Shown: one piece after another, positions 3,488 through 37,690 of the stretch
Position numbering within the stretch: position 1 is the stretch's first letter
Layout of the letters: each line of letters starts with the position of its first letter
Translations under genes and position numbers: made by a program
NCBI RefSeq assembly: GCF_000485595.1
Contig: NW_014577530.1
Location: 1 to 42,550, forward strand
Direction: 5' to 3'
Source of the DNA: Priapulus caudatus
Lineage: Eukaryota > Priapulida > Priapulimorpha > Priapulimorphida > Priapulidae
Length of the DNA: 42,550 bases
Notes under the pieces: model-generated
What the model was told of the DNA's origin: nothing
What the model saw: only the letters and a program-made list of their open reading frames with translations
Databases searched by the model: none

Positions 3488-3746
3488 CTTCGAATTTCAC
3501 AATGCAGGTCTTCTCGCCCGTCTCGCACTGGTCAGCGCCGATGCATGGTGCCCCCTGGCGGGCGATGAAGCTCTTTGCATTCGTCCAGCCGACGCGGAAC
3601 AGCCCGACCCAGTCTCCGCCCGCGGGCGTAATCAGCTCCGTTAGCTTGTACTGGCAGTCCAGCGGTTCGCCCGCGACGTAAGTGTCGCTAATGTCAAACA
3701 CGACTTGTCCGAAGTCGGACTTCACTAACAGCTCGCCGTCGGCCAT
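3488..3746 (-). CDS. First coding exon of a SKICH-domain protein (CALCOCO/TAX1BP1-like), partial
   Basis: The minus-strand frame starts at ATG 3746 (context GGAAAATGG: A at -3, G at +4, a strong Kozak match) and ends at the donor GAAG|GTGGGT. The translation begins MADGELLVKSDFGQVVF and continues with a DWVGLFRVGW motif. That matches the SKICH fold core of NDP52/CALCOCO2, TAX1BP1 and CALCOCO1, where the human equivalent is DWIGIFRVGW. In those proteins SKICH is the N-terminal domain and contributes to selective-autophagy signalling. Only about the first two thirds of the domain is encoded; the frame ends near the KFEG position where later strands should follow. No continuation exon was found between 1 and 3487. 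An in-frame GTG upstream (3770) could extend the frame but is not a likely start. Whether this is an intact gene or an orphan exon cannot be decided here. Confidence 0.7.
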
Positions 3747-3957
3747 TTTCCTGCGTCGCACGGAGGTCACGCGAGCAGCATCTGCGAACGTGCGGGAAAA
3801 CCAACTCTGATGTAGTCTCTATTGCACAGTTACTATCAAATTAGATTGACAAAATATGCGAAACTATGACGTAGCAAGTCAGGTAAACCCATTAATATAT
3901 GAACAATAGTGTTAGTGCCTATAAGAGCGTTCAATTTGGTAAACAAATTACGCCATT

Positions 3958-8753: not shown

Positions 8754-8797
8754 ATGGCGCCGCCGACTAAAGTCACAATCATAGGTTCGGGTAACTG
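8754..8797 (+). CDS. GPD1: GPD1 coding exon 1
   Basis: ATG at 8754 with G at -3 and G at +4. The exon encodes [14 protein letters not shown] plus the first two bases of a Trp codon, then the donor CTG|GTAAGT. It contributes the first beta strand and the GxGxxG dinucleotide-binding loop, which is completed by exon 2 (WGTAIAKI). No other in-frame ATG gives the family start. Confidence 0.93.
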
Positions 8798-14676: not shown

Positions 14677-14714
<38 letters not shown>

Positions 14715-16428
14715 TTGTCCCGTTGCGCAATCATGCGTGTACGCGAGTCGCGAGATCACTGTCACAGTGTGTGAGTGGATGTCCGGATGCGTAGCCTGGA
14801 GGCTAGGCGACCGGACGCGTAGCCACTGCGTATTCGAAAATGCATCTTTACACCTTGAACACATAACCTTCGGTCTATAGGGCTGTAACCGTCAATTCAA
14901 TCACTTTATTTTACACTTATAATATACAAATTACATTTAGCGGAAAGTATAACATGAAACAAAATAAATATATACAAGTAATGGAGGGTGAATTGACAAT
15001 ACAGTCTTCTAGTTAGCCACTAGTCTTCTAATCAGCCACTGGAAACACCCAGTTGGGGCATGCATAATGGTTGGACCATGCAATGCTAGTACTAGTCCAC
15101 TCCATCTTCCTCGTGTCGTGCACAGCATTGCTATCTTGCTGACCGCAGCTACATTCGCGTCTAGCGTTCAAGGTCACGGACGGGTGTCGAGTTATAGTTG
15201 CCATGGGAGCGAGGGGAGCCCTCCTGCCAATAGTCAGGCGTTTTCCCTCCTCATTTGGTGATCGCCATTATCATAATAAAATACTCTATGAAAAAATAAT
15301 CTATATTTATCTAATACAATGTATATAATTATCTTAAACTAATCTGTAGCTGTAGGTTATTGTTAGCATCATTAATGTAATCATCGTTACAGGCGCACGA
15401 CTGCAGGTCATTATTGACATGTAATAATTGTTACAGGGGCACGGCTGTAGGTTATTGTTAGCATCAATGTAATAATTGTTACAGGGGCACGGCTGTAGGT
15501 TATTGTTAGCATCATTAATGTAATCATCGTTACAGGGGCACGACTGCAGGTCATTATTGACATGTAATAATTGTTACAGGCACACGGCTGTAGGTTATTG
15601 TTAGCATCATTAATGTAATCATCGATACAGGCGCACGACTGCAGGTCATTATTGACATGTAATAATTGTTACAGGCACACGGCTGTAGGTTATTGTTAGC
15701 ATCATTAATCATAATGTAATCATCGTTACAGGGGCACGGCGATCGCTAAGATCGTCGGTCACAACGTGCGACGCAGGGAGCGGTTCGACAATGAGCTGAG
15801 GCTGTTCGTCTACGAGGAGATGGTCGACGGCAAGAAGCTGTCCGAGATCATCAACGAGACGCACGAGAACGTCAAGTACCTGCCGGGCGTGCGGCTGCCC
15901 GACAACGTGGTACGTCACAGACGCGGCGGGCGGGCGGGTGGGCATGCGGCTGCCCGATAACGTGGTACGTCACAGACGCGGCGGGCGGGCGGGTGGTTGG
16001 ATGGGCGGGCGGCTGCCCGATAACGTGGTACGTCACAGACGCGGCGGGCGGGTGGTTGGATGGGCGGGCGGTTGGATGGGCGTGCGGCTGCCCGATAACG
16101 TGGTACGTCACAGACGCGTCGGGCGGGTGGGCGTGTGGCTGCCCGATAACGTGGTACGTCACAGACGCGTCGGGCGGGTGGTTGGATGGGCGGGCGGTTG
16201 GATGGGCGTGTGGCTGCCCGACAATGTGGTACATCACAGACGCGGTGGGCGGGCGGGAGTGCGTGCGGCTGCCCGACAACGTGGTACGTCACAGACGCGG
16301 CGGGCGGGGATGACAGAGTGTGCCCTACTAGTGGGCCCTACTCACCCTGTGCTCTGTCTAGCTGTCTCACCTAGAGTGAGCATTCGTGGGTATGGTGTAT
16401 TACTGTAGTCTGTAACGTCTTAGAATTA

Positions 16429-16466
<38 letters not shown>

Positions 16467-19400
16467 TGAAACGCACTGAGACTTGCTTAGCACCATGCGC
16501 AGTGCTACAGTGTGTGCGCAGAAACGACACGTACCACTCAATCAGCACTCTTGATTGTATACAATCACGCCACATATATTGAACCAGATTAGCTTGCCTT
16601 ACTCACCGTTTAACATCCGTATGATATCGTTTGCATCGACGTATGTTGTACGAACGCTGCGTATCGATTATCATATCATGGGTCGCTTGCATCGTGATGC
16701 AGCAATGTATCGGTGCATCGTTACACCCCTAGTAGTGCGCGCCCGGGCCCCCTGTTCGATTTCACATCCGGCGAGAGCCGCAGGTCTGTCGTAACCGCGG
16801 CGACTGCATCGCTTTTGCGCAGGTGGCGGTGCCGGACATCAGGGCATCCGTGAAGGATTCGGACATCCTCGTCTTCGTCATCCCACATCAGTTTGTGAAG
16901 AACATCTGCGGTCAGCTGAAGGGAGCGGTCAAGTCGACCGCGATCGGACTGTCTCTCATCAAGGTGACGACAGTATATTATATTCTACTGACTGTATTGT
17001 ATCGTATTGTATTTTACTGTATTGTGTTTAATATTGTGTTGTATTGTACCATATCGTATCGTATTGTAATATAATTGTATTGTATCAGGAGCATTGCTGA
17101 TGTGTTGCTGGACTGTGACGACAGCGTTGTAGCTTGTATTATCTGATTAAGAAATGGTGGGAGTGGGGGATATCTAGGTAGAAAATCTGATCTTGCCCCG
17201 ATATAATTACTGTCAAACGTGTTGGTGGACTCCTAGGTAGACTCGCCGCCTGTCTGTAACAGGCACGTTCTTGCGAGCGGCAATTGTACAGTGAAGCTAC
17301 CTGTTTAATTGTATACCCCACGACGAAGTCGGCGGGAATACTATGGTTTCATGTCTGTCCAGCCGCCGCAGCTGCAGACACTTTCCCTTCCGCTCTATAA
17401 CTCGACCCCTAATTGACCTAGCGTGACCAAACATGGTCTACTTACACATCTTGGGGAGAAGGTGCGCAGCGTACCAAAACCAGGTCACTACGACCTTTAT
17501 TTGACCTTTACCTTGACCTTGATCATATTTCCCTTCCGCTCTATAACTCGACCCCTAATTCACCTAGCGCGAGCAAACTTCGTATACTTACACATCTTGG
17601 GGAGAAGGTATGTCGCGTACCAAAACCCCTAAGGCAACCAATTTTAACATACTTGCACATCTCAGGCAGATGAGTTGTGTAACAAACCTTTGTCTTTGTG
17701 ACTTATTTAACTTTACCTACCTTCTACGTCCTTACAGAGATATTTCATTGATACTAGATCACGGGGGATACATGTAGTTGGCGACAACTGCCCTTCCTAG
17801 TTTTTTTTAATTTTTACAATTTTTTTATATTGGACACGTGTCTGGTAAGGAAACTTGATTGACAATTTATTCAGTGAAACTGCCTCCATAGAACAGACAG
17901 GTCTGTTGTCTATAAAGAAGATTTTTGGCATTAATATCGGGTGGCAGTTATAGTATACAGTGAAACTGTCTCCTTAGAACTGACAGCTGTCCATGGGGGA
18001 GACTTGTGGTTCTCCTTGACTGACGCCTATATCTAGGTTCGACTCCCAACAGACAGGAGCAGCCATCCTGGATCGCTGGCTCCTGTTGTTCGTGATGTAT
18101 TTGCGTTGGCTGGTCCGACCTGCACCGTCTTTGCGCGCACACCCTAACCACACATGCGTGCCAATTCGATTTTATAGAGGTTGATATGCAAAAACCGATT
18201 ATGTGTTTTTGGGCGAGGAAGGGAGGGGCACTCGTATGTTTCTCGACTGACGCCGAACAACGCGGGCGATCAGTAGGTTGTCACTGCCGTAATTGAGCCG
18301 TGAGCGTGACAAGTGCAACAGATTTGTCGATGTACGCGAACTATGTTTTACACTTAAGAGCTCTGTGGGGCTTTGGCTAAAAGTGTTTCGTGTAGCAAAC
18401 GACTAGATCGCTGAGCACTGAGGCCATCCTTAAAAAATTATATGTTTGCTGTCCTCCGACCGACCCACGAAAATAGCCGCGACCCAAAAGTTTTTTGACA
18501 TTTTTTGTTGACATTTTTTTACATTTTTTACAGTTTTTTTACATTTTCATATTTAAGACTGAAACACAAAGCATGTGTGGCAAACATGAGGACAGACTTA
18601 AAATAACTATTATGCCTCACAAAAAAAGACCTACCTACATACCCACTAAAAATATCATGGGTCGGGGGACAGCAAACATAGAATTTATTAAGGATGGCCT
18701 GATAGACAGACCTTTGTAGAAACATTTACCTACATGCTCTGCTAAAAATATGTTTTACCTGTTTATCTATTGAGATGCTATGATCAGTAAACTGTGATGC
18801 AATGCTGGCAGCTCTGTTTAACTACATAGTGTGATCTATTGAACTGTACACCAAATTGTGATGTGGGTGTGGTTCGTATTTTTTCCTGGATTGTATTTTA
18901 CTGTATTGTTACCTCCGCGCAACGGAGTTGCAGGGAGGTAATGTGACCCCTCTCGTGTGATGTGTTCGTGTGTGTGTTCGTGTGTGTGTGTGTAGCCAGC
19001 AGCGAGCCAGCTGTTATACACATGTATACATGGTACACGCGTTGGCGCGATCGATTCAGCACCAGCTCGCCTTAGGCCGTCCAGTCAGCAGCAGCTCGCC
19101 TTAAGGCGTCCAGCCAGCAGCAGCCCCTAATCCTCTCACCATATCTGTTCGCACAATATTTTGGCTGTGAACAGCAAGCCTAGCGTTTCTTCGACCTAGA
19201 TTCGGCCAAACGTGTTTCGAAAATCTCCCAGGCTCCCACTCACATAAATGATAAACACATACACAGATATGAGGACTTTCTGATCGGAAACACTATAACC
19301 AACTTCTGGCAGACATGAGCTCTGTGTTCGTGACGATAGTGGCAGTAACAATACTCAATAGCAATAATGTCATGTATAATGTAGCACGTAATGTAATAAT

Positions 19401-21814: not shown

Positions 21815-21863
<49 letters not shown>

Positions 21864-24800
21864 AGAAGCGAGAGAGAATTGTCCGGTTGCGCAATCATTG
21901 CGTGTACGCGAGCTACTGCGAGATCACTGTCACAAGTGTGAGTGAGTGGATGTCCGGATGCGTAGCGGCCTGAGGCTCAGGCGACGCGGCACCACGCCGG
22001 GCCACACAAAGACTAAGCCCTTCGCGTATTCGAAAATGCATGCTTACACGCTTGAACACATAACCTTCGGTCTATATGGGCTGTACCCGGGGGTCAATTA
22101 CAAAACTCATTATTTTACACTTATAATATTACATAAAATTACATCTAGCGCGGAAAGTATAACATGAAACACAAAATAAATACTATACAAAGTAATAGGA
22201 GGAGTAATTGAACAATACAGTCTTCTAGTTAGGACCCACTAGTCTTCTAATCAAGCCAGCTGGAAACACGCCAGTTGGGGCATGCCATAATGGTTTGGAC
22301 CCATGCAATGCTAGTACTAGTCCACCTCCTCTTCCCCGTGTCGTGCACAGCATTGCTATCTTGCTGACCCGCAGCTTTACAATTCGCGTCTAGCGTTCAA
22401 GGTCAGCGGACGGGTTGTCGAGTTTAATAGTTGCGCATTGGAGGCGAGGGAGCCCTCCCTGCCAATTAGTAGGCCGTTTTTTCCCTCCTCATTTGGTGAT
22501 CGCCATTATCATAATAAAATACTCTATGAAAAAATAATCTATATTTATCCTAATAACAATGTAATAGAATTATCTAACTAATCTGTAGCTGTAGGTTATT
22601 GTTAGCAATATTAATGTACATCCGTTAGCAGGCGGCACGGCTGCAGGTCATTCATTGACATGTAATACATTGTTAGCACGGGCCGGCTGGGGTAGGCTTA
22701 TTGTTAGCATCAATGTAATAATTGTTTTACAGGGCACCGCNNNNNNNNNNNNNNNNNNNNNNNNNGGGTTAGGGTTAGGGTTAGGGTTAGGGTTAGGGTT
22801 AGGGTTAGGGTTAGGGTTAGGGTTAGGGTTAGGGTTAACTGAATTCACTGAATTCAGTGAATTTCAGTGGATTTGCCATCATTTTGGTAAATTGAATAGC
22901 GTTCGAGTAAATTTCAGTGGATTTGGGGGTGGATTTGGTGGATTTGGGGGTGGATTTGGCCCCCAAATCCACCAAATCCACCCCCAAATCCATGGATTTG
23001 GGGGTGGATTTGGGTGAATCGTGTAACCCTTTTTGAGTGCCCTCTGTCTAGTTTTGATTGTGTTGTTTCATGTTGTCTTTGTATTGTGTTGTACTGTACA
23101 TATCATATAATATTGTATTTTACTGTATTGTGTTTATTGTGTTATATTGTATCGAATTGTATTTTACTGTATTGTGTTTATTGTGTTGTATTGTATCAGG
23201 AGCATTGCTGATGTGATGCGTTGACAGCTGACGCTGTGTTCTCATCGTTGTTGTTGCGCGCGTGTTGACAGCTATGCGTGTTTTCATAGCTACGCGTGTT
23301 ATACTGATTCTCATCGTTGCCGCGCGCGCGCGTGTTGACAGCTATGCAAGTTATGACAGCTACGCGTGTTATACTGATTCTCATCGTTGCCGCGCGCCCG
23401 TGTTGACAGCTATGCGTGTTATACTGATTCTCATCGTTGCCGCGCGCGCGCGTGTTGACAGGGTGTGGACATCAACGAGACGGGACTGGTGCTCATCTCT
23501 TCCATCATCGAGGATGCACTCGCAATCCCCGTCAGCGTGCTCATGGGAGCCAACCTCGCTAACGAGGTCGCGCAGGAGAAGTTCTGCGAGACCACTATAG
23601 GTGAGCGATCTACACCGGCGCCCTCTGGTGCGCGTCGGCAGCCCCGTGGTGCCTCTCTGCCACTTTATTTTATTTTTTATTTATTTGTTTGGGTGATTAT
23701 ATACTTTTTAATTATATTAAAAATAATTATAAGTTAAGTAATTATAATTAATTAGTTATATATATATATATATATATTAAATTCATAAAATTACATAACT
23801 GCCAATGATATATACACAAAAAGTGTGACTAGCACGCTTATTTACATTGTGGTCCTTGTTCACTTCCTTCCCTTCATTGCCTTTCTTCTATGCCTTCGCT
23901 CGTTTCTTGTTTTTGCTTTCTGTCTTTCTTCCTCTAGATAACTCCTGCGTTACATTCACCCTTTCCTTTTCAAAATTTGCTCCCTGAGTGAACCCAAGAA
24001 ACTGTTTTATGCCCCAATAATTGTGAATTGTTCTAGGAAGCCATGTAAAAATATGTACATCTTGTGTAAGTTGCCTAGGCACAGTAACGTGAGCAGGCTG
24101 CCGAAGTATTTACGTAGCATGTCCAACCATGCACATTGCACAATAGTCGACACCATATCTAGACTTACCGAGCGAAAATACCCCCGTGTATCATTACAGG
24201 CAGTGAGAAGTGAACCATTGGCGGGAAAAAACTGCTAACGTTCACTCACCTCTGACATTTTCTGAGTTTCCTAACCGTTTTCCGCTCGGTCCACCGTCTG
24301 TCGATATCCAAATAGGCTGTTGTTATTGTTTTTACGCGCCATGCTCTAAACAGGTGTACAGACCTACTGCGGAGGGATCGGGGAACACTTAAACATGAAC
24401 CTGGTTGAAGTTTTAATTTCACCCTTGCACGCCGCGGATCAGTTTCGACTGCAACCTCTATTGGCTGAATGACCTTCAACCGTGACTGTGACCTTGGCCC
24501 TGACTGTTGCCCTTGACCTTGACCTTGACCATTGACTGTGACCTTACCCCTGGCCTTTAATCCCAACCTTTGACCTTGACCTTGACCCCACAGGCTGCAA
24601 GGACAAGGACGTGGGAGTGATGCTGAAGGAGATGTGTCAGGCTCCGTACTTCCGCGTCGCCGTCGTCGACGAGGTCGAAGCCGTCGAGCTCTGTGGTGCC
24701 CTCAAGGTGAGTGCGCGTGCGGCAGTGGCGCCACCTAGCCCAATTCGTCGTCGCGCTGTTCGGTGGTGCCGCGGCGTCCTCTGTGTGCTTGTAGTCGTCA

Positions 24801-27800
24801 CCGTGACGCGTAGCTCTGTGGCGCACAAGTACAATTACAAGTACTGGTAAGTATAATTACAAGTGCTGGTAACAAGTACAATTACAAGTACTGGTAAGTA
24901 CAATTACAAGTGCTGGTAACAAGTACAATTACAAGTACTGGTAAGTACAATTACAAATGCTGGTAACAAGTACAATTACAAGTACTGGTAAGTACAATTA
25001 CAAGTGCTGGTAACAAGTACAATTACAAGTACTGGTAAGTACAATTACAAGTACTGGTAACAAGTACAATTACAAGTACTGGTAACAACTACAATTACAA
25101 GAACAGATAAGAAGTGGTGAACTAGGAAAGGTGGATTTCCTTGTTACCGTGCGTGGACCGAAGGTATCTAATTACGCAGGTTCGGGGCTGCCATGTTATT
25201 CATATATATAATAATAGAGAGAGAGAGCGCAGTAAAGTCTATGTGGCACCCAGGAAGGAAGTATTGAAACCATAAACCCTCTAAACTGGGGGTACGTGAT
25301 TTTTTTTTGGCCGCCGCAGTAGTTGGTATCTACAATAATAGAAACGGTGTGTGTGTGAGAGAGAGAGATGTTCCGGCGGGTGAGGCGGCAAGCGTAGAGT
25401 CGAATCGCGTGTTTTCTGGCAGCGAGCGAGCGCACCTATCCTCCCCCTCGCTGTGGTGGTGGAACAACAGCTGTGGCACGCTGGCGTGTTTTGTTTGTAG
25501 AGCAGAAAAGCTGAAATAGCTCAGGGCGGGGGGGGGGTTACAACAGCAAGTGTTCCCCCCTTTCCCCCTCGCTACCATCATGTACAGCACACGTGCACAG
25601 CGTTTGCGTGCGTGCGTGCGTGCATATGTGTGTGTGTGTGCGTGTGTGTACGTGCGTGCATATGTGTGTGCGTGTGCGTGTGTGTGCGCGTGCGTGCGTG
25701 CGTGTGTTTGTAGTATGCATGTAGGCAGGTTTAGGGTTAAAAAAAGGTAGGTCCTAAATTGGCAGGAATTGTTATCGCAATCCTAGCAGAGGTACGTTAA
25801 TTATAACTCGTTTCTGGCAGCGCGCCAGCCATATTGGATTTCGAATGTGCCGGCCAGCTGTACAGGCAACGTGCAGGGATGCAATGCCGGTTCGAGTCTT
25901 GCGTACCTCTGCAAAAGCCAGAGCAGTGTGCGTTGATGCACCGCCGAGGCTATCTCGCATTTTACCCTCACGTCGAAAGATTCTTACACCAATATCCCCT
26001 TCCTAGTATCATAAATTCATCACAGAGGCACAATACGACTGGGTCACGTAAAGTACATGGTACTGTTGCTTCTTATGCGATGGTTGTTGATTGTTAGTGT
26101 AGCCGGCGGGCAGTATGTAGAAGATTGAGAGGTGCGGAAGTAGATGGAAGAGTAAGAGAGGGAGAGAGAGGAGAGAGTTAGAAAAGTGGGGTGAGGTAGA
26201 AAAGTTGAAGCAGGTGGAGAAAGTGGTAGACTTGGAGGAGGGGGAGAAGGCGGTACAAGATGGAAGAGGAGGTGGAAAGGCGAGGTAGTGGAAGGCGCTA
26301 ACGCATGCGCAGTCTGGAATCGTGGGCGATGTAACGTTCGGCCATCGGAATTTTGACTATCGTGTATGTGTTTCCGTTCATATCTTAACAGTCGTGTGTG
26401 TGTGTGTGTGTTTGTATTTGCTTTCGAATCTTCAGGTTTCTATTTGTGTTACCATTCAATCAACTCTTGGCAGTCATATCATGATCACTCTGATTCTGAC
26501 CGTTCCATCTGTATTTCCATCTGACCAACCGGTGATCGTCTGTATGTATATTCCCCATGTGGGCTGCTGTCCCTCCGTTCTAACGGCAGCATTGCTGTCT
26601 GTGTTTACATCCAACCAACCGGCGATCGTCTGTATGTATATAATTATTATTTCCCATGGCGGCTCTGTGTCAGTGTGTTCTAACGGTGTCTGTGTTTGCG
26701 TCTGCATAGAACGTGATCGCCGTGGCGGCGGGCATCACAGACGGTCTCGACCAGGGCGACAACACCAAGGCCGCAGTCATCCGCCTCGGCCTCATGGAGA
26801 TGATCAAGTTCATCGAGCTGTTCTATCCAGGTAGGTGGCGCCACGCGGCGACGACGTGGGGCGGGAGCGACGCGAGACGCGCGTCTCGGCACAGTGCCGA
26901 GACAGGGTGAGGCAGGTCTCTGCAGGTGAGACAGGCTGAGGCAGGTGAGACAAGTTTATGAGCAGGTTATGGAGCGAGGCCGGTTACGCCGGGTGCCGGC
27001 ACGCGAGTTGAGACCTGTCTCGCTCGACAGTAAGGCCTGCCTGTCTGTCTCGGTGCGTGACGAGACAAGACTGGTGGTCTCAATGGGCGCTGGGTTGAGA
27101 CGTGTCTCTGTGGTTGCGGTCTCGATTACGGACGTCTCATTTGCACGTGTAGTGAGGCCCAGCAATCGGCGTTTACGCTGGCATAAAACCGCCGGTGAAT
27201 TATTAAACTCATTTTTCGCCCCCTCTAATTATTAACCATGCTCGCACGATTGTGCGCGTTTAAGAATGCTTAGCTGCGCAGGAAAATTAAACGTCGTTTG
27301 TTCTTTTGGGTTTTTTTGCCGAAAAGCTGGGTCTCGTTAACAGCCAGCCGGAAGTGAATTGTGGTCGTTTAATGGCGGTTACCTCGATCGCCATGTTTAT
27401 CACGGTATTTTGCACCTACCTGGCTGGTATTTTGCACCTACCTGGCTGGTATTTTGCACCTACCTGGCTGGTATTTTGCACCTACCTGGCTGGTATTTTG
27501 CACCTACCTGGCTGGTATTTTGCACCTACCTGGCTGGTATTTTGCACCTACCTAGCTGGTATTTTGCACCTACCTGGCTGGTATTTTGCACCTACCTGGC
27601 TGGTATTTTGCACCTACCTTCCTGGTATTTTGCACCTACCTTCCTGGTATTTTGCACCTACCTGGCTGGTATTTTGCACCTACCTGGCTGGTATTTTGCA
27701 CCTACCTAGCTGGTATTTTGCACCTACCTAGCTGGTATTTTGCACCTACCTAGCTGGTAGTTTGCCACCTATGATCTGCGCGCATCACGCGGCGATGACT

Positions 27801-30800: not shown

Positions 30801-33800
30801 GAAGCGCATTGTGTGTGTGTGTGCATGCGTTTCTTAAAACCAACACATGTACAGTAGTAGTTGCCTTTCTAGAGCGAATTGTTAGCGCGCACATTAGACA
30901 AGTGGGCTGTGATTAGACACTGTCGCTATCCTGTCTCTTTTGACTAACCGGGGGTCGTTTGTTTTGGCTGTAGGTCGCGACAAATGGATATTCCTGCAGT
31001 CGTGTGGCATAGCCGATATAATAGGTGGCTATTGCAATGGGACAAACTACAAGATGACGATGCAGTTTATGACGTCCGGCAAGGTACGGTGAGGGCGCCA
31101 GGCGCCGCGCCCGCCACCAGAGGGCGGCAGCATCGGGGAGCCGTCCCGCCCGTCCCGAGACGCGCACGCACAAATTCTCCCGCCCCCAGCGGTGGCACCC
31201 CCACCGCCCTGGCGCCCACGCCCGCCTGCTGAGCGTACAAATTTCTCTTCCCGTTGCGCCGAAAAAATCCAGCGTGCACGCCGGCGTTATTTCTAACCCC
31301 CCGCCACCACCCTCGGAACGAGAATTGCGTTTCCGGCCGACAAACAAGAGCGTCTCCAGTTGCCGCACTCTCTCGTGCTCGGGCGCGGCCCTTCCCCCCG
31401 CGGTGGTGTTCGCCGCCTCCCTTCATCAACGCGGTCCCGCTTTGCTTTTGTCTCGCTGCAGGCTGTAGCACTGAAACGTTCCTAGAGAGCTGTGGCATCG
31501 CCGACCTCGTCACGACCTGCTACGGCGGCCGAAACCGGAGACTCGGCGAAGCGTTCGTCCGCACCGGGAAGGTAATGAGAGGCGGTGCCCCCTGCCGGTG
31601 CGCGGGGGGGAGGACACCCCACGCCGGGCGGGGCACGCCCTGCCGCCTCGTGCGTCTCCTCACACTCGTCTCGTTCGCCGAGTTTCCTTTCTAGCGGATG
31701 CGGCTGACGGACCATGCCGATCTTCTGCTGGTGGCGCGGGGTGCTGGCGTGGATTCGCGTCGCCGCGATTGCCCGTGGCGCGCTCTGGCGGGCGTTGCAT
31801 GAGCGAAATTGTGCGAGAACGAATGCGGATGATTGTTGGTGTGCGAGCGAGCGTGTGTGAAGTGGCGCCACCTTGTGGCAAGCGCTGTCGGCTGCGGTCA
31901 CGGCGAGTCGCGGGCTGAGGTCGGAGAGTGGTGGGTGTGGCGTTTGCGCGGGCAATCATAGGTGTTTGATTCTCCTGTGTTTTATCCTGTGCTTTTTCGC
32001 AGAGGTGTGTTCTCTCTCGGTTTCGCACGTCGAGGGAATTTGTGAAACGATTCTAACGATCGTACACAAAATCCATCGATTCTCACCTAGTCGTGTCTGC
32101 AATCCTCTTCTGTGCATATATACTTTAATGCTATAGTAGCAGTTCTAGAACTTAAGGCAGATAGAAGAGATGTAGATAGAACGTTCACTGGTTTTACAAT
32201 GTCTATAATTTTTTAGAAGTATTTACTCACTATATTATTGTAAACGAAGTTGTATTTTTCGCATACAACGTGACATTTGTGCGAAACGCGTTTGCATAAA
32301 GGTATTAATAGGACTCTTACATCAATATGTTTGAATTAGTTTAGGATCTAAAAGAACAGGCAATATTTTTGCAATGCCACTATGTGTAAAAAACCGTCCT
32401 GCATTTTCCTATTTATATTTCGTTTAAAAAAACATTTTTCTGGTACTATTTATGGTGCCTTTAGCCAGCACTGCAATGATAGCTCTATTACTAATGTTTA
32501 AACCGGTGCAAAATCGACTGAGGTGGGGCCGCTGTCAGCAGTGTTGTAGTTCTACAGTAACGATTAGCACTATTGCAACGCTAGCGTTAATGCGAATGAT
32601 GAAAATGCGATCGCATAAATACTGTAGACACCCCCACTGCAATCCCCGCGGCAATCTGCCCGCTTACAATACAATAAATGCTACAGGGAAGAAGTAACGG
32701 CCCATCATTACCGACTGGACCGATTCACCGAGACTAGTATTACGATATTACGATGTCTGATGTTATTACTGATCAGACCGATTCACGGAGACTAGTGTTA
32801 CGACGAATACATGTCTGACAGCGGCCTCATCATGTCAGTCTGTATGACGGGTGTCACTGCCACCGACCTTGGTCACTCCAGCGGTTGTGCTTCTAAGCAC
32901 TTCTTCTTGCTTCTTTCAGAGCTTCTAAGCTCTTCTTCCATCCTTCGTTTCAGAGCTTCTAAGCTCTTCTTCCATCCTTCGTTTCAGAGCTTCTAAGCTT
33001 TCCTTCTTTCAGAGCTTCTAAGCTCTCCTTCCTTCCTTCGTTTCAGAGCTCCTAAGCTCTTCTTCCTTCCTTCGTTTCAGAGCTTCTAAGCTCTTCTTCC
33101 TTCCCTCTTTCAGAGCTTCTAAGCTCTCCTTCCTTCCTTCGTTTCAGAGCTTCTAAGCTCTTCTTCCTTCCTTCTTTCAGAGCTTCTAAGCTCTTCTTCC
33201 TTCCCTCTTTCAGAGCTTCTAAGCTCTTCTTCCTTCTTTCAGAGCTTCGTGCAGCTTGAGCGGGAGCTGATGAATGGACAGAAGCTGCAGGGTCCGACGA
33301 CGGCGGCCGAGGTCTATGAGATGCTGAAGAACAAGGGCATGGAGGACCAGTACGTGCACGAAGAAGCCCTGCAGGGTTTCTCTTTCCATCTTCCCCCTCC
33401 TCCCCCGTATCTGGTTTCGCGCGGCGTATTTTTGCGGGGAAAGGTTTAGCCTGTTGCTTTACCACGTGACGTGTGTCGCGGTGCTTGCCGCGTGCTCGCT
33501 TGATGTTCAACCGCGAGTGTTCACCACATGTTTACCTTTTGTCTAGCCAAAATGTTTCCTGTGTCTTTACCTGATCAATGTTGTTTTACCTGATGTTCGA
33601 CCAGTGTTTGGCACCCGGTTCCTGCCTTGTTTTCCTGCTCACTGCCCTGGTTGCTCCTCTCTCTTCCTCTTCCTCTTCCCGTAGATCCAAAAGTACCTCA
33701 CCAGGTGGCAGCGCTGTGCCGGTAGTTGACTACTTCGCTCGGTAATGGATTTGTTACGTAGTTTGAGCGGCTGGGATGTCAGAGGCCGACGTGGTGGTCC

Positions 33801-34804
33801 GGTGGTCTGGTGACGCGTGGATGTTAGAATAGTAGGAACGCGGATGTATGTGAGGTGGATGGATGCGTATGCTGCATGTGCGTGCACCCGTGTGTGCGTG
33901 CATGTGCCGGTGCGTGTGTAGATAGATGTGGTGACAGTGATGTGTGGATCGATGGATGGGACTGTGACAATGTGTTGTGCATGGTGGGAGTATGGATATG
34001 ATGGTGACAGGTGGACAAATGTGACAGTGGCGTGTTGATGGATGTTGTGACGGTGACACATTGACAGATGTTGTGACAGTGACACGTTGATGGATGTTTG
34101 TGACAAGGACGTATTCGTGGATGGTTGTGACAATGACACGTTGATGGATGTATGTGAATTGTGACAGCAACGTGTTGATGCGATGTTGTGACAGTGATGC
34201 ATTGATGGATGTATGTGACAGCGACGTGTTGATGCGATGTTTGTGACAATGATGCATTGATGGATGTATGTGACAGCGACGTGTTGATGCGATGTTGTGA
34301 CAATGATTATGATGCATTGATGCGATGTTTGTGACAACGACGTGTTGATGCGATGTGACAATGACACGTTGATGGATGTATGTGAATTGTGACAGCAACG
34401 TGTTGATGCGATGTTGTGACAGTGATGCATTGATGGATGTATGTGACAGCGACGTGTTGATGCGATGTTGTGACAATGATTATGATGCATTGATGCGATG
34501 TTTGTGACAACGACGTGTTGATGCGATGTGACAATGACACGTTGATGGATGTTTGTGACAATGACACATTGATGGATGTATGTGACAGCGACGTGTTGAT
34601 GCGATGTTGTGACAATGACACATTGATGCGATGTTTATGACAGCGACGACACCCCGTCCATCGTCGCCACCGCTCACGCGTGTTTCTCTGACTCTCCTCC
34701 CCCGCAGGTTCCCGCTGTTCACCGCGATCCACCGCATCTCGTCGGAAGGCATGCCTGCGAAGGAGTTGATCAAGTGCCTGATGCATCACCCGGAGCACAT
34801 GTAA
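8754..34804 (+). CDS. GPD1: GPD1: cytosolic NAD-dependent glycerol-3-phosphate dehydrogenase (spliced gene)
   Basis: The enzyme interconverts dihydroxyacetone phosphate and sn-glycerol 3-phosphate with NADH/NAD+, linking glycolysis to lipid synthesis and to the glycerophosphate shuttle in the cytosol. Nine exons (8754-8797, 15732-15909, 16823-16963, 23462-23600, 24594-24706, 26710-26830, 31462-31571, 33243-33349, 34708-34804) join in frame at GT-AG sites. They give 1050 nt, which is 349 residues plus stop, the same length as human GPD1. Landmarks are the N-terminal Rossmann loop IGSGNWG, the lysine of SLIK at the exon 3/4 junction, the catalytic Lys-Asn of ALKN across the exon 5/6 junction, TCYGGRNR in exon 7, NGQKLQGP in exon 8, and the C-terminus HPEHM. 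An alternative exon 7a lies at 30974-31083. Intron 1 (6.9 kb) and intron 3 (6.5 kb) contain the duplicated, possibly misassembled block. Confidence 0.95.
8847..9410. mobile_element. Non-autonomous DNA transposon with terminal inverted repeats
   Basis: The left end CATGGGTGTATGCAGG and the right end CCTGGATACACCCCTG are inverted copies (14 of 16 matches). They are flanked by a direct TTATC at 8842-8846 and 9411-9415. Inverted similarity continues inward (CTTTTCACAATGA near 8945 against CATTGTGAAAAGG near 9346). The middle is A-rich with AAAGACAAAGAC repeats. No transposase is encoded. It sits 50 bp inside GPD1 intron 1. Confidence 0.7.
9411..10484. other. GPD1 intron 1 sequence
   Basis: Ordinary intronic sequence. 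I see no exon, tandem array or transposon ends apart from the flanking elements. Confidence 0.4.
10485..10880. mobile_element. hAT-like MITE with perfect 8-bp target duplication
   Basis: The element starts TAGTGATGTC and ends GACAACACTA (inverted, 9 of 10 matches). It is flanked on both sides by the same 8 bases GTAAACAA (10477-10484 and 10881-10888). Subterminal GATCATCGGTT and AACCGATCATC are also inverted. The 8-bp duplication and the TAGTG/CACTA termini fit the hAT superfamily. At 396 bp it has no transposase. Confidence 0.8.
10889..11913. other. GPD1 intron 1 sequence with AT and TG microsatellites
   Basis: No exon is seen. There is an AT-dinucleotide-rich tract at about 11440-11510, a (TG)n/(TGCG)n microsatellite at 11649-11712, and a palindrome around 11775-11815 (CTATCAATAGATAGAGTCTATTGATAG type). 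Confidence 0.5.
12783..13450. mobile_element. hAT-like MITE in segment A
   Basis: The left end TAAGCGGTG (a corrupted TAGGGGTG) and the right end CCACACTA are followed by GTAATAAC and preceded by a similar GTAAATAAC. Subterminal repeats of CGGTTCGG/CGGTTTTCGG are present at the left, and CGGTT/GGGCGGTTTAACCAGT at the right. The cleaner duplicate at 19940-20612 shows the exact boundaries. No transposase. Confidence 0.65.
14410..14720. repeat. CA/TG and GA microsatellites in segment A
   Basis: TG-rich runs at about 14511-14570 and a (GA)n run at about 14683-14714, within sequence also found near 21680-21870. Frames across them are artefacts. Confidence 0.75.
15382..15740 (+). repeat. Minisatellite built from the GPD1 exon 2 acceptor
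   Basis: Seven copies of a TTACAG-GGGCACGGC-type block, spaced about 44-56 bp apart (AG at 15392, 15436, 15484, 15535, 15579, 15630 and 15674), precede the true acceptor (AG at 15730-15731). Each copy carries the acceptor AG plus roughly the first 9-10 bases of exon 2 and is linked by GGTTATTGTTAGCATC or GGTCATTATTGACATG spacers. Reading from a GGGCACGGCTGTAGG decoy in the exon phase soon meets a TAG. Confidence 0.85.
15732..15909 (+). CDS. GPD1: GPD1 coding exon 2
   Basis: It begins with the G completing the Trp codon, then [11 protein letters not shown], and ends LPDNV before the donor GTG|GTACGT. At 178 nt it is phase 2 in, phase 0 out. It encodes the rest of the Rossmann turn, the VYEE strand end and the HENVKYLPG segment typical of the family. 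GC content is much higher than in the surrounding introns. The exon is sandwiched between two minisatellites that contain copies of its own two splice sites. The first donor must be the one used: the next copy is 55 bp downstream (out of frame) and the extension hits a stop at 15958-15960. Confidence 0.93.
15889..16312 (+). repeat. Minisatellite built from the GPD1 exon 2 donor
   Basis: Seven copies (the exon end itself plus six) of GGCTGCCCGACAACGTG|GTACGTCACAGACGCG, joined by GGGCGGG/TTGGATGGGC spacers of variable length. Five of the six downstream copies keep GTACGT and one has GTACAT. Long frames on both strands ([13 protein letters not shown], and on the other strand the CDVPRYRAA type) are by-products of the repeat. 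Confidence 0.9.
16313..16822. other. GPD1 intron 2 sequence
   Basis: No exon is seen apart from the flanking ones. An (AT)n run sits at about 16431-16463. A CATGCGCAG motif occurs near 16494. Confidence 0.45.
16823..16963 (+). CDS. GPD1: GPD1 coding exon 3
   Basis: Acceptor TTTTGCGCAG, then [19 protein letters not shown] through GLSLIK, then the donor AAG|GTGACG. At 141 nt it is phase 0 both ends. It encodes the second half of the nucleotide-binding region with the conserved VPHQF segment. It ends on the lysine equivalent to Lys120 of human GPD1, which lies in the active-site cleft. Confidence 0.93.
16964..17113 (+). repeat. TATTGTAT-rich stretch, left copy of a direct repeat pair
   Basis: Degenerate TATTGTATCG/TTTACTGTATTG repeats ending in GTATCAGGAGCATTGCTGATG. 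A similar stretch, with the same ending, lies at about 23050-23217, just before exon 4. Confidence 0.7.
17114..19130. other. GPD1 intron 3, left part
   Basis: No exon is supported. It contains a ~100 bp unit repeated directly (17388-17488 and 17530-17630, sharing CTCTATAACTCGACCCC and CACATCTTGGGGAGAAGG), a CACGACGAAGTCGG stretch near 17318, and two AACTG.CTCC(A/T)TAGAAC repeats near 17880 and 17965. A GGTTCGACTCC B-box-like motif near 18037 could belong to a tRNA-derived SINE. A CTCCGCGCAACGGAGTTGCAG dispersed-repeat-like palindrome lies near 18914. Confidence 0.4.
17388..17630 (+). repeat. Two direct copies of a ~100 bp unit, period ~142 bp
   Basis: Copy 1 is at 17388-17488 and copy 2 at 17530-17630. 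Both start near CCTTCCGCTCTATAACTC and end near GCGTACCAAAACC, separated by a TGACCTTTACCTTGACC spacer. Confidence 0.75.
19940..20612. mobile_element. hAT-like MITE in segment B with 8-bp target duplication
   Basis: The element starts TAGGGGTGCAATG and ends CCACGACTA. GTAATAAC flanks it at 19932-19939 and again at 20614-20621 (one extra G lies between). TAGGGGTG and CAC-x-ACTA termini with 8-bp duplication fit hAT. The left subterminal region carries repeated CGGTTCGGTT. The ATATATCGAGTATATATAAC palindrome lies internally. No transposase. Confidence 0.75.
21682..21875. repeat. TG/TGCG and GA microsatellites in segment B
   Basis: (TG)n followed by (TGTGCG)n, then two (GA)n runs. The Ser/Leu-rich and His/Thr-rich frames here are artefacts. 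Confidence 0.85.
22741..22765. other. Assembly gap of 25 N
   Basis: Exactly 25 N separate the broken end of segment B from a telomeric repeat array. A fixed 25-N run is a placeholder size rather than a measured gap. Confidence 0.98.
22766..22837 (+). repeat. (GGGTTA)12 telomere-type array
   Basis: Twelve perfect GGGTTA units (72 bp) immediately follow the gap and lie inside GPD1 intron 3. They match the TTAGGG telomere motif of most animals. Confidence 0.95.
22905..23015. repeat. Palindromic GGATTTGGGGGT repeat
   Basis: Units of GGATTTGG(GGGT) run forward to about 22958, then invert as CCCCCAAATCCACC to about 22992, then run forward again. This gives a long hairpin-capable G-rich/C-rich structure next to the telomeric array. 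Confidence 0.8.
23219..23461 (+). repeat. Minisatellite built from the GPD1 exon 4 acceptor
   Basis: The true acceptor reads TCATCGTTG-CCGCGCGCGCGCG-TGTTGACAG. Several copies of the same block (TGTTGACAG near 23271, 23341 and 23408, GTTGACAG near 23226, and a TTATGACAG variant near 23357) lie upstream, joined by CTATGCGTGTTATACTGATTC. A decoy acceptor would read CTA TGC GTG TTA TAC TGA in the exon phase, that is, five residues then stop. Confidence 0.8.
23462..23600 (+). CDS. GPD1: GPD1 coding exon 4
   Basis: [20 protein letters not shown] through KFCETTI plus one base, donor ATAG|GTGAGC. At 139 nt it is phase 0 in, phase 1 out. It contains [13 protein letters not shown], the conserved MGAN-A-EVA segment that links the nucleotide-binding and substrate-binding domains. 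Confidence 0.94.
23601..24465. other. GPD1 intron 4 sequence
   Basis: No exon is seen. An (AT)n run sits at about 23755-23777. The 3' part (24466-24593) is described separately. Confidence 0.45.
24466..24593 (+). repeat. TGACCT-type repeat forming the exon 5 pyrimidine tract
   Basis: Degenerate TGACCTTGACC units run up to and include the polypyrimidine tract of the exon 5 acceptor (TTGACCTTGACCCCACAG). Confidence 0.6.
24594..24706 (+). CDS. GPD1: GPD1 coding exon 5
   Basis: It begins with GC completing Gly, then [13 protein letters not shown] through [10 protein letters not shown], donor AAG|GTGAGT. At 113 nt it is phase 1 in, phase 0 out. The last codon is the lysine equivalent to human Lys204, the general acid/base of the reaction. 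Its partner Asn opens exon 6. Confidence 0.94.
24826..25110 (+). repeat. 47-bp tandem array of CAAGTACAATTACAAG units
   Basis: A dimeric unit made of 25-bp and 22-bp halves (CAAGTACAATTACAAG-TACTGGTAA and GTACAATTACAAG-TGCTGGTAA), about six dimers, in GPD1 intron 5. Many copies contain CTG|GTAAGT, a perfect donor-like motif. Confidence 0.9.
25111..26500. other. GPD1 intron 5 sequence
   Basis: No exon is seen. A (TG)n/(TGCG)n microsatellite is at about 25608-25712. An 11-bp inverted pair (GCAGAGGTACG at 25787-25797, CGTACCTCTGC at 25901-25911) encloses a GGTTCGAGTCT B-box-like motif and could be a decayed tRNA-derived SINE. A purine-rich GAGAGG/GGTGGA tract lies at 26120-26290. AACGCATGCGCAG near 26301 resembles an NRF1 site. 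Confidence 0.4.
26508..26709 (+). repeat. ~100-bp tandem units leading into the exon 6 acceptor
   Basis: Two copies of a unit (CAACCGG(T/C)GATCGTCTGTATGTAT ... GTTCTAACGG ... CTGTGTTT) start near 26524 and 26617. The sequence across the true acceptor (CTGTGTTTGCGTCTGCATAG, then AACGTGATCGCC) aligns as a degenerate further unit. Confidence 0.5.
26710..26830 (+). CDS. GPD1: GPD1 coding exon 6
   Basis: Acceptor GTCTGCATAG, then [20 protein letters not shown] through IELFYP plus one base, donor CCAG|GTAGGT. At 121 nt it is phase 0 in, phase 1 out. The first residue is the Asn that follows the catalytic Lys. [16 protein letters not shown] is one of the best-conserved helices of the family. The phase-1 exit is what both alternative copies of exon 7 match. 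Confidence 0.94.
26831..27403. other. Start of GPD1 intron 6
   Basis: Contains CAGGTGAGAC/GAGGCAGG-type short repeats (about 26895-26960) and several GAGACNTGTCTC-type palindromic stretches to about 27140. No exon is seen. Confidence 0.4.
27404..27775 (+). repeat. 22-bp minisatellite, about 16 copies
   Basis: TATTTTGCACCTACC-TGGCTGG repeated almost perfectly, with TAGCTGG and TTCCTGG variants. Because 22 is not divisible by 3, three units read as one 22-residue periodic frame in all three frames. That explains the long [17 protein letters not shown]-type frames, which are not genes. Confidence 0.95.
27776..28833. other. GPD1 intron 6 sequence
   Basis: No exon is seen. A CA/pyrimidine-rich tract near 28160-28200 and an AT-dinucleotide microsatellite at about 28727-28833 are the only clear features besides the hairpin element listed separately. 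Confidence 0.4.
28268..28343. mobile_element. Small hairpin MITE, GGGGTAGRTAATGACAAA family, copy 1
   Basis: The left arm GGGGGTAGGTAATGACAAA and the right arm TTTGTCATTATCTACTCCTG are inverted copies around a short A-rich centre. The same arms occur at 35915-35965. Confidence 0.6.
28834..29390. mobile_element. 557-bp MITE with near-perfect terminal inverted repeats
   Basis: The left end ATCAAGAGCGTATAAAG, continuing through GGAGAGCGTACAAC (28834-28866), is exactly the reverse complement of 29358-29390. With a few mismatches the match extends inward to AAATGCTGAAA (about 28881 and 29344). It is flanked on both sides by AT microsatellite, consistent with insertion into (TA)n. The interior has no transposase; the 66-codon minus-strand frame inside is not recognised. 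Confidence 0.8.
29408..29473. mobile_element. Possible 66-bp hairpin element
   Basis: CAGGAGT at the left and ACTCCTG at the right, with AGCAAATTGTG and ACAAATTTGTTT arms inside. It may be a divergent relative of the GGGGTAGATAATGACAAA hairpins. Confidence 0.35.
29474..30973. other. GPD1 intron 6, right part
   Basis: No further exon is supported. There is a TG-rich stretch at 29645-29775, a short CAGGGTGA repeat at 30028-30060, and AT-rich sequence at 30340-30720. A good branch-point and acceptor context (TTTTGACTAAC, then GTTTGTTTTGGCTGTAG) at 30938-30973 serves exon 7a. Confidence 0.45.
30974..31083 (+). CDS. GPD1: GPD1 alternative exon 7a (mutually exclusive with 7b)
   Basis: After acceptor GGCTGTAG the frame entered from exon 6 reads G, then [18 protein letters not shown] through MTSGK, then donor AAG|GTACGG. 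It is exactly 110 nt (2 + 36 codons), the same length and phases (1 in, 0 out) as exon 7b. By eye 13 of 36 residues are identical to 7b, including the FL-x-SCGIAD block and the final GK. The Asp of GIAD (human Asp260) and an Asn at the Asn270 position are kept. The Thr (Thr264) is Gly and the phosphate-gripping Arg (Arg269) is Thr: TCYGGRNR becomes GYCNGTNY. Codons are more A/T-rich than in 7b. It has no stop or frameshift and both splice sites look usable, so I read it as a real alternative exon rather than a relic. Expression is not shown. Confidence 0.85.
31462..31571 (+). CDS. GPD1: GPD1 coding exon 7b (canonical)
   Basis: Acceptor CGCTGCAG, then GC completing Gly, [18 protein letters not shown] through FVRTGK, donor AAG|GTAATG. 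At 110 nt it is phase 1 in, phase 0 out. It carries TCYGGRNRR with the Thr, Arg and Asn equivalent to human Thr264, Arg269 and Asn270. The Arg binds the phosphate of dihydroxyacetone phosphate. This is the version matching GPD1 across animals. Confidence 0.95.
31572..32896. other. GPD1 intron 7, left part
   Basis: GC-rich for the first ~400 bp, then AT-rich. No exon is seen; overlapping frames on both strands between 31254 and 32030 are GC-rich shadows. A ~62-bp unit (GACCGATTCAC(C/G)GAGACTAGT) occurs twice in tandem at about 32698-32822. Confidence 0.45.
32897..33248 (+). repeat. Minisatellite built from the GPD1 exon 8 acceptor
   Basis: About ten copies of TTTCAG|AGCTTCTAAGCTCTTCTTCC (27-36 bp spacing), then the true junction TTTCAG|AGCTTCGTGCAG. 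Each decoy contains a good pyrimidine tract, the AG and the first six bases of the exon. Splicing to any decoy in the required phase reads Ser-Phe-stop (AGC TTC TAA); one copy has AGCTCC instead. The Lys/Glu/Ser-rich frame on the minus strand is a by-product. Confidence 0.92.
33243..33349 (+). CDS. GPD1: GPD1 coding exon 8
   Basis: [20 protein letters not shown] through NKGMED plus CA, donor CCA|GTACGT. At 107 nt it is phase 0 in, phase 2 out. NGQKLQGP holds the Gln residues lining the active site in human GPD1. The exon follows either 7a or 7b in frame. Confidence 0.94.
33845..34655. repeat. Minisatellite of GATGGATGTATGTGACAGCGACG units
   Basis: Degenerate ~30-bp units (GTTGATGGATG/GTTGATGCGATG + TGTGACA + GTGAC/GCGAC) with a higher-order period of about 230 bp (34134 and 34364 share the unusual GTATGTGAATTGTGACAGC block). 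It produces minus-strand His/Ser/Thr frames up to 283 codons, which are not genes. Confidence 0.9.
34708..34804 (+). CDS. GPD1: GPD1 terminal coding exon 9
   Basis: Acceptor CTCCCCCGCAG, then G completing Gln, [20 protein letters not shown] through HHPEHM and TAA at 34802-34804. HPEHM is the exact C-terminus of vertebrate GPD1. The stop codon lies inside a donor-like sequence (CACAT|GTAAGC), which would permit splicing to a further 3' exon, as occurs in Drosophila Gpdh. I found no convincing downstream exon. Confidence 0.94.
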
Positions 34805-37690
34805 GCGCCGCGCGCACACACCACGCAGCCGCCGCGCGTAGATCGTAGCAGAATAATCACTGATGATTGCTGCGCGCTAAAGAGGCATCTGCCGCTTCGC
34901 TAGCTACTAACTTCGATCACGCACGAGCGAGCGTCGTGCCTTTCTCGTCGCGTCGGACATGCCCGGGGGGGGGGGGGTACTGTCGTGCAAAAATGTCATT
35001 TGTCAATTATATTTCTCAATTTGTTAATTTTATTTGTCACTCGCACAAAATTTTTAGTTTTTTTCATTCCTTCCCCAAACATGTTCGCTATGTTCCGCTC
35101 ATAGGTCGCTTTTTTATCCCATTGTTTTTAATGTGCTGTTTTTGAGTGTTACATAATTCATCACGTTGGCAATCGATGAAAAATTTCGAACCCAAGGTTG
35201 TACGTGTTGCCGCTGTAACATGGCACACTGCCTTTTTCCTACCCTCAAAATTTGCCACGGAGGCTATGAGGTCAGGGTTTGCAAGTTTTATCACGGGGCT
35301 GGTGACCACTCTTGTCCCACAGCTGGGAGCCACTATTCTATTATCGGCGGTATTTCCGGGCATGTCTGATCAGGGTGCGGCGTGAGCTGCACTAGATGGT
35401 ATGGCTGTAGTTGTCTGATAACACAGATGGCTTCTTCTAGCTGCAAGGATGACACGCGAGGTGAAGCAAGCGCGCGAGGGGGAGGGAGGGGGGGCGAAGA
35501 AGCAGAGGGAACGGGATGTCGGTTGTGACGATCATGTTGAACCGACCCCAGGGGGGAGGGTGGGGTGTGTGAGATCTGTGCAACTTTCCATTGCTGTTGC
35601 CCCGCGGTTTGTGCCTTGCTATTAATACAACAAGCAGATAACCACTGATTGCTGCTGGGTATAGTAGTGGTGGCATGCGCATAGCAATAGCGCTAGTTCG
35701 CGTACTAAGATGCAATCGACGCGCGCGGAGCGTCGTGGATTTGTTTGTTGTTTATCGTTAGATTGTTTGTTAACTGGTGCTTGGCGGTCGGGTGTCGGTG
35801 TGTTAAGGTTGCGGGCGAATCACGCACGCACGTGAGACGCAGAGAGGCTGGTTGTGATGCTGCGTAAACCCCCTATTCCCTGCTGCGCATATAGAGGTCT
35901 GATCTCATTGTTACCAGGGGGTAGATAATGACGAATAAAGGAAGATTTGTCGTTATCTACCCCTGTTGTTACGTAGGTTTAGCGGCTAACCGTTCGTAGC
36001 TCGCCGTTGCCGTAGCTAGACTAACGGGTCGTTACGAGGCGCGTGAGAGACGTGACGTTGTTGTTTTTCGTTGTTATTTATTCGCGGCGACTGTCACTTT
36101 GTGTCACCCGTCACTCACTGCAGGTACCGTTCTATCGTAGCAGTGAATGTGGCTCGTGTTTCACCTCGTGTTCTGTTGTTCTATTCGCCTGCAGAGTTCG
36201 TTCTCTCGAGTACTTTTCGTGTGTTAAATGCGTATGCTTGATAAAGATGAGATATACATACTCGTTTTAAATTGATAAGGGAAACTTGTGAAAGTAAAGA
36301 TTAGCCACAGAGAGAAAGTGCAATGATTTCTGTGCGTCTGTGTGTGTGTATGTTTGTGGAATAGTGAGTGATATAGTGTTGAAACTACCTGTGTGATTTG
36401 TAAGTTGAAACTACCTGTGTGATTTGCAGGTTGAAACTAATGTGAGTGAAATATCCCCTGAAGAATGCGACGTGTTGAATAGCATAGAGTAACTAAAATT
36501 TGTCGGATGCATACTATCGTTGAGTCTTAGTAGCTTATTGCCTTTTGCTTCGTTCCTGCTTACATTAATTACTATTAATTTTACTTAATTATTGTCGTTT
36601 TGCGTGATTCCGTCAGCATGAACCTGTGGCAGTTGTCATGGCGATCAACATAGCAGTCCTGGCAAGGCTACCACAGGTGTCATGACGACGACCTGGAAAG
36701 GCCGCCACGACGCCAACCTGGCTAGGTCGTCATGGCGACGACCTAACAGGTGTCATGGCGGCCGCCGGATTTCCGACGTGTGAGATTAATGTTGTCATTT
36801 TGTGGCAGGGACAAAGAATACCACGAGCATCCCTTCCTTCACCTACGATCCGTGCCCGCCACCTCCCCAACGAGCCCCTGAAGCAGTCACCAGGTGGAGC
36901 CACCTGTCTGCGCATGAGGACGCGGTTGCTGCACGCGCATGAGTGTCGGCCGTCCGCTGCAGTCGGCCGAGATTTAACGATCAGTGTTTTTTGTTGCGTG
37001 TTTTGTTCGTGATTGACGCGTCGTACTGCTGAACAGAAGATGAGAAGGGGGCGTGGAAGAATTTCACAAGGCAAAATCGGGTTATTTTAGCTTGCGTTGT
37101 TGTCGTTGTTGTTTAATTCTGTGTTCGTGTTTATGTGTGTGTACACGCGCGCGCGTGTGTAGTGTATTTATCATCCGCTATCGCTTCGCTGTTGTTTGCC
37201 TGTTCAGTTATTCACGAAAAATCGCACCACGCTGCTCACATATGGCTTTTACCGATACATAGGCAAGGTACTAGGACTGTACCTTACTAGGACGCAATCT
37301 TACCGCCCACTTTTCATATAAAACTTTTCCCCATATCCTAGAGCATGTTTCAATCATGATAAACATCATAACTGCGATGTTGCAATCTTATGTAGACGAT
37401 ATTTTAGAACAGGTTTTGTCGGTAAAGTTGACGCAGTGACAGAGAGGTGGAATTCATAATTCACTGGTGGTTAGGATGCATAGGGTATATCAATACTGAA
37501 TGTAAAATAGGCAAGGGTTAGGAAGACAAACAAATGTATGGAATATCTGTATGTAGAGTGGCAAATACATCAGCATTGTGTCTCTCGTTCTTTATAGTGT
37601 ACATGTATATATATATATGTTAATAATTATGACAGTTACTCAGATGATAATATACATATTCATCTATATATAGAAATGCAAAACTTTCAT
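34805..37690. other. GPD1 3' flank and intergenic DNA
   Basis: No exon is supported. A G-homopolymer at 34964-34977, a direct 33-bp duplication (TTGAAACTACCTGTGTGATTTG) at 36380-36450 and imperfect GTCATGGCGACGACCT repeats at 36635-36770 are visible. The first good AATAAA on this strand is inside the hairpin element at about 35934-35939, so the GPD1 poly(A) site is not fixed. Confidence 0.4.
35915..35965. mobile_element. 51-bp hairpin MITE with 7-bp target duplication, copy 2
   Basis: The left arm CAGGGGGTAGATAATGACGA and the right arm TTGTCGTTATCTACCCCTG surround a 12-13-base centre. TTGTTAC flanks it on both sides (35908-35914 and 35966-35972). The arms match the element at 28268-28343. 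Confidence 0.75.

Follow-up and report, generated by a model that had tools for sequence, protein, structure and literature searches.

The question raised by the GPD1 locus of Priapulus caudatus is whether an animal can exchange, by splicing, the part of the enzyme that carries Arg269, a residue well studied as a case of phosphate binding energy driving catalysis (PMC12874384). The window, by which we mean the whole 42,550-nucleotide stretch of contig NW_014577530.1 that was analysed, contains two versions of exon 7: 7b, which is standard, and 7a, in which the substrate loop is rewritten. This exon pair, with its clear catalytic prediction, is real and well formed, and the sequence makes it quite likely that 7a is really used in the animal.

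The coding sequence of Priapulus GPD1 is divided into nine exons, the seventh of which can be either 7a or 7b (Table 1), and either choice yields a coding sequence of 1,050 nt and a protein of 349 residues. The best protein match is the predicted NCBI Priapulus GPD "isoform X1", which is identical to the 7b isoform at 349/349 positions. The C-terminus of isoform X1 differs; it is encoded by the alternative last coding exon, which is reached via a splice within the last codons of exon 9.

Table 1 Coding exons of the Priapulus GPD1 gene, in positions of the window.
Feature	Position	Strand	Basis or remark
GPD1 exon 1, coding part with start ATG	8754..8797	+	tblastn/splicing; same as NCBI Priapulus GPD
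GPD1 exon 2	15732..15909	+	
GPD1 exon 3	16823..16963	+	
GPD1 exon 4	23462..23600	+	
GPD1 exon 5	24594..24706	+	
GPD1 exon 6	26710..26830	+	phase 1 at end
Exon 7a, alternative	30974..31083	+	110 nt, entered in phase 1 and left in phase 0; altered substrate loop GYCNGTNY
Exon 7b, standard	31462..31571	+	TCYGGRNR; 110 nt, phase 1 to 0; in NCBI isoform X1
GPD1 exon 8	33243..33349	+	
GPD1 exon 9	34708..34804	+	stop codon of the 349-residue proteins; 5' splice site within the exon, after 34800, joins to 36809
GPD1 alternative last coding exon	36809..36881	+	DKEYHEHPFLHLRSVPATSPTSP; in NCBI isoform X1

No second GPD gene or haplotype copy was found in the 385 Mb assembly with the PF07479 and 7a-isoform searches, which diverged copies may escape: the 7a-isoform query missed 7b, and PF07479 missed 7a. 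Both matches (2/2) of the PF07479 profile in the whole 385 Mb genome fall in the GPD1 gene, the scan (E ≤ 0.001) reporting exons 6 and 7b and not 7a. With the 349-residue 7a isoform as query, nine of the ten scored places in the genome correspond to the GPD1 gene, and the tenth has an E value of 6.6.

As judged by eye, 12601-15720 recurs at 19740-22840 with many small indels, followed by an N run and GGGTTA repeats; this repeat, which lies within GPD1 introns 1 and 3, looks like an uncorrected-read patch of the assembly. Roughly 11 copies of a 34-nt unit form a minisatellite at 32889-33242 that reaches into exon 8. In ten of these copies TTTCAG precedes AGCTTCTAA or AGCTCCTAA, giving a decoy 3' splice site of exon 8 with an in-frame stop at the third codon, and the true 3' splice site of exon 8 is that of the last copy only. 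On the minus strand, 3426-3818 holds an open frame with a SKICH domain, a piece of another gene.

The initial annotation had described 7a and 7b as exons of 110 nt and 36 codons, entered in phase 1 and left in phase 0, with 13 identical residues and a reading frame that admits exactly one of them, and each element of this description was reproduced. AG and GT flank both exons at the positions given in Table 1. The two share 13/36 residues and 49/108 bases in whole codons, and insertion of 7a or 7b alone between 26830 and 33243 gives 349 residues. Inclusion of both leads to a stop after seven codons of 7b, 86 nt ahead of the next exon junction, and inclusion of neither to a stop after five codons of exon 8, 90 nt ahead of the next junction. 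Such products would presumably be directed to nonsense-mediated decay, and the cell would splice in exactly one of the two exons. The pair shows several of the features by which mutually exclusive exons are recognized, namely adjacent homologous exons, the same constitutive neighbours, equal phases, a frame lock and splice sites on both members.

When ranked locally with a weight matrix, the 5' splice site of 7a stands at the 98th percentile of 471 GT and its 3' site at the 95th percentile of 306 AG; by the same matrix, a second 5' splice site (ACG/gtgagg), located 5 nt downstream of 7a, slightly outscores the in-frame site (5.0 vs 4.0), and its use would break the frame. A 15-nt inverted repeat (31088-31102/31208-31222, 87% complementary, evaluated without a control) begins at this second site and could mask it in the RNA. 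Five inverted repeats around 7a and 7b were considered for competing RNA pairing, and none is convincing, again without a control. Steric exclusion as the splicing mechanism appears unlikely because 378 nt of intron separate 7a from 7b. The GC3 of 7a (0.65) lies below the values for 7b (0.78) and for the whole gene (0.84), which tells against a genuine pair.

Chance similarity between 7a and 7b was ruled out. The score of the 7a peptide is 68 against 7b and at best 31 against the same introns with 7a and 7b removed, and 0/200 Markov-1 control sequences reach 68 (median 32, maximum 43). Tblastn with four animal GPD1 proteins matched 7a at E values of 0.0008 to 0.002. The peptide SCGIAD is common to both exons; its DNA differs at five bases in 3/6 codons, all silent in sum, with the serine encoded by TCG in one exon and by AGC in the other. 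Counted by codon position, with the split first codon included, the exons are identical at 18, 20 and 13 of 37 sites, which indicates that the third positions are nearer saturation.

The age of the copy was approached by comparison with other animals. In an alignment of 31 columns, 7a agrees with 7b at 13 and with exon 7 of other animals at a median of 13 and a best of 16, and 7b matches the same 239 homologues at a median of 24; these are a biased sample, consisting of the best 120 of 1,083 and the best 120 of 4,947 matches to 7a-isoform queries, less P0121 (the Priapulus GPD that is identical to 7b), with none dropped for gaps. Being as far from 7b as from other phyla, 7a is an old or a fast-changing copy. 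It has lost 9 of the 17 near-invariant columns of exon 7, including Arg269. None of the 240 proteins (best 120 of 1,083 plus best 120 of 4,947) fits 7a better than 7b, and a search of 5.8 billion clustered proteins, made with the 7a region only and requiring three shared 5-residue words, returned no relative of 7a, although clustering at 90% could hide one. The Priapulus cluster P0121 has two members, and an isoform that differs in a single exon may hide behind its standard sister because the database is clustered at 90% identity.

Alignment to human GPD1 places the difference between the exons in the active site. In this alignment, the Priapulus numbering runs one above the human before a gap near 247 and is equal to it thereafter. 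The motifs at 264-271 are, as first proposed, TCYGGRNR in 7b and GYCNGTNY in 7a. In full, Gly263, Gly264, Tyr265, Cys266, Asn267, Thr269 and Tyr271 of 7a replace Thr, Thr, Cys, Tyr, Gly, Arg and Arg of the standard enzyme. The replacement of Thr264 by Gly and of Arg269 by Thr, with the equivalents of Asp260 and Asn270 preserved, had been put forward from the sequence and is borne out by the alignment, which adds Gly268 to the retained residues. Position 269 is Arg in 239/239 homologues and position 264 is Thr in 237/239 (best 120 of 1,083 plus best 120 of 4,947); at these two positions the 7a isoform has Thr and Gly. The 7a isoform has the equivalents of Lys120, Lys204, Asn205, Asp260, Asn270 and Gln295, the residues of the hydride-transfer centre, of which those of Lys120, Lys204, Asn205 and Gln295 are encoded by shared exons; the roles of these residues are as described in PMC12874384. 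According to the same source, the R269A substitution in human GPD1 causes a 41,000-fold loss in kcat and a 4.5 million-fold loss in kcat/Km; the review also describes a bond between Thr264 and Lys204 and a greater reactivity of N270A towards glycolaldehyde, a truncated substrate. The human R269A kinetics (PMC12874384) lend good support to the prediction, made in the initial annotation, that the 7a isoform should handle dihydroxyacetone phosphate (DHAP) poorly.

The PF01210 and PF07479 domains and TIGR03376 all exceed their curated cut-offs in the 7a isoform. Relative to the 7b isoform, the PF07479 score falls from 153.7 to 121.9 bits and the TIGR03376 score from 492.8 to 462.5 bits, both values being far above cut-off, and from these family scores we infer that the 7a isoform keeps the fold. 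The predicted structure of the 7b protein has a mean pLDDT of 88.8 and a TM score of 0.91 to human GPD1. In this model, the part encoded by exon 7 covers helices 249-254, 257-267 and 269-280 and has both ends in loops; a unit of whole helices with its ends in loops should be swappable as a module. The 7a isoform is a predicted product of the GPD1 gene and should not be called a working GPD1.

We conclude, with a probability of roughly two in three, that 7a and 7b are true mutually exclusive exons, derived from an ancient duplication within the single GPD1 gene identified, and that the 7a isoform is crippled for DHAP and either changed in specificity or regulatory. On this account, an old duplication of exon 7 would have produced both versions, and the 7a isoform would keep the hydride-transfer centre while losing the Arg that grips the phosphate and the Thr that bonds to Lys204. 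With Arg269 and Thr264 lost, the isoform should be nearly inactive on DHAP. Splicing could then toggle the active site of GPD1 between its normal and its rewritten form. The role ranked first for the 7a isoform, held tentatively, is action on a different carbonyl substrate, one without a phosphodianion or carrying its own cation.

A doubtful alternative, ranked second, would have 7a encode a catalytically dead subunit, the inclusion of which lowers GPD1 activity with no change in transcription, mixed dimers perhaps being inactive. The magnitude of the human R269A defect (PMC12874384), which results from loss of Arg269 alone, is in keeping with this role, every other exon is shared by the two isoforms, and the Pfam and TIGR03376 scores given above imply that the 7a isoform should fold. 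A pure off-switch, however, would require neither the changes at 263-267 and 271-276 nor the retention of Asp260, Gly268 and Asn270. Much less probable is a function at the level of the RNA, in which 7a acts as a poison exon, and joint inclusion of 7a and 7b or use of the downstream 5' site produces early stops and less GPD1 mRNA. The position of the 7a+7b stop, 86 nt before the next junction, and the additional 5' splice site only 5 nt beyond the in-frame one are consistent with such a function. Against it, a poison exon need not preserve the exon 7 frame, the exact length or SCGIAD, all of which 7a has kept.

Unlikely too, and ranked third, is the explanation that 7a is a drifting relic, an ancient copy of exon 7 whose inclusion in the mRNA has ceased or persists only as noise. 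The lack of relatives among the 5.8 billion proteins (clustered at 90%), the loss of near-invariant columns that include an Arg found in 239/239 homologues, and the slightly stronger out-of-frame 5' splice site all agree with it, and an open frame alone would survive drift with a P of about 0.17 to 0.46. Yet 110 nt of unconstrained sequence that has undergone about 0.8 substitutions per site should have acquired 4 to 13 indels (for assumed indel ratios of 0.05-0.15), and the length, the frame and both splice sites of 7a are intact. The amino-acid identity and its clustering also lie above drift. When 7b was allowed to drift in 3,000 simulated runs, with the identity at codon positions 1 and 2 matched, the probability of an identity ≥ 13 was 0.008 and that of a run ≥ 6 was 0.002; over six settings of 1,500 runs each, the probability of an identity ≥ 13 ranged from 0.001 to 0.013. 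The same test gave a P of only 0.10 for the COQ2 exon pair discussed below, which is of a kind functional in other animals; the drift test therefore has little power and cannot alone carry the case for 7a. Unconstrained drift fits 7a poorly, as judged by this weak test.

A possible physiological context for the mutually exclusive pair is offered by the COQ2 gene of Priapulus (C1542, minus strand), which has two versions of one exon, e (39956-39825) and a (37944-37813). Each is 134 nt long with its two leading bases and lies between AG and GT, in the same phases as the GPD1 pair. In C. elegans numbering, e has Leu204 and Ser243, and a has Phe204 and Ala243, these residues being placed by motif and by their spacing of 39 residues rather than by alignment of the C. 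elegans sequence. In the COQ-2e exons treated in PMC7434440, the Leu and Ser residues are invariant, and in C. elegans, too, each of the two exons measures 134 nt. The agreement of Leu/Ser in e and Phe/Ala in a with that report identifies a rhodoquinone-type exon pair. The 2020 paper (PMC7434440) restricts its list of animals with rhodoquinone to nematodes, platyhelminths, molluscs and annelids, and a 2026 preprint reports rhodoquinone in mammals as well (PMC13174367), so the list of animals has grown and the e exon need not be required. No paper on rhodoquinone in priapulids was found in the searched open-access literature. Judging from the COQ2 exons, priapulids probably make rhodoquinone, a prediction that would place 7a in a plausible physiological context. 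Another priapulid, Halicryptus, is associated with long anaerobiosis in the title of a reference in PMC11026434.

These observations suggest, as a distinctly speculative scenario, a low-oxygen splicing programme in which COQ2 would switch to the rhodoquinone exon while GPD1 would switch to the 7a isoform, which would no longer reduce DHAP and would apply its Lys/Asp centre to a non-phosphorylated or cation-bearing carbonyl. The link between rhodoquinone or anaerobiosis and 7a is a guess. In a table of PMC8659336, RNAi of C. elegans gpdh-1 has a score of 0 in a rhodoquinone-dependent survival screen, which, if anything, speaks against a link between GPD and rhodoquinone. The same paper, on helminths, was retrieved with terms for mutually exclusive exons and GPD and was rejected as an earlier report of a GPD variant, as the exon pair it describes is that of COQ-2. 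Within the titles and abstract openings of the searched open-access literature, no GPD with mutually exclusive or duplicated exons, and no such variant from alternative splicing in Priapulus, was found.

If the proposed pair is used as envisaged, an animal that splices out Arg269 would provide a natural test of the phosphate-binding-energy idea, and splicing would be a new control of glycerol-3-phosphate and of the NADH balance. Were the low-oxygen scenario also true, 7a would amount to the R269A experiment carried out in nature by splicing.

Mutually exclusive exons that tune a core metabolic enzyme are known from KHK (exons 3a/3c), and the exon switches of PKM and KHK change regulation or substrate affinity and are not known to remove a key active-site arginine. 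The mutually exclusive exons 9 and 10 of PKM, which likewise tune a core metabolic enzyme, resemble 7a and 7b in this respect (PMC3498831). A closer parallel is seen in coq-2 exons 6a and 6e of C. elegans and other rhodoquinone makers (PMC7434440). Like 7a and 7b, these exons lie side by side, are homologous and identical in length, which in coq-2 is 134 nt, and alter the core of one metabolic enzyme. The unusual coq-2 version alters residues near the substrates (PMC7434440), and in Priapulus COQ2 the unusual exon comes first, as does 7a. The enzymes differ, and coq-2e is marked by two hallmark residues (PMC7434440), whereas most of the loop 263-271 is altered in 7a. RNA sequencing has confirmed both coq-2 forms in C. 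elegans, and without the e exon hardly any rhodoquinone is made (PMC7434440); GPD1 7a is known from its sequence alone.

Among animal cytosolic NAD-dependent GPD1/GPD1L enzymes (PDB 1X0V, 6E90, 2PLA), the 7b isoform is a standard member. The 7a isoform shares with them the length, all exons but 7 and probably the fold, and it differs in lacking Arg269 and Thr264; Arg269 is absent from 0/239 of the homologues compared. A close counterpart of the 7a isoform is human GPD1 R269A (PDB 6PYP; PMC12874384), which has lost the same Arg and kept Lys120, Lys204, Asp260, Asn270 and Gln295. R269A is a laboratory point mutant to Ala, whereas 7a carries Thr at this position together with many nearby changes, all supplied by a separate exon.
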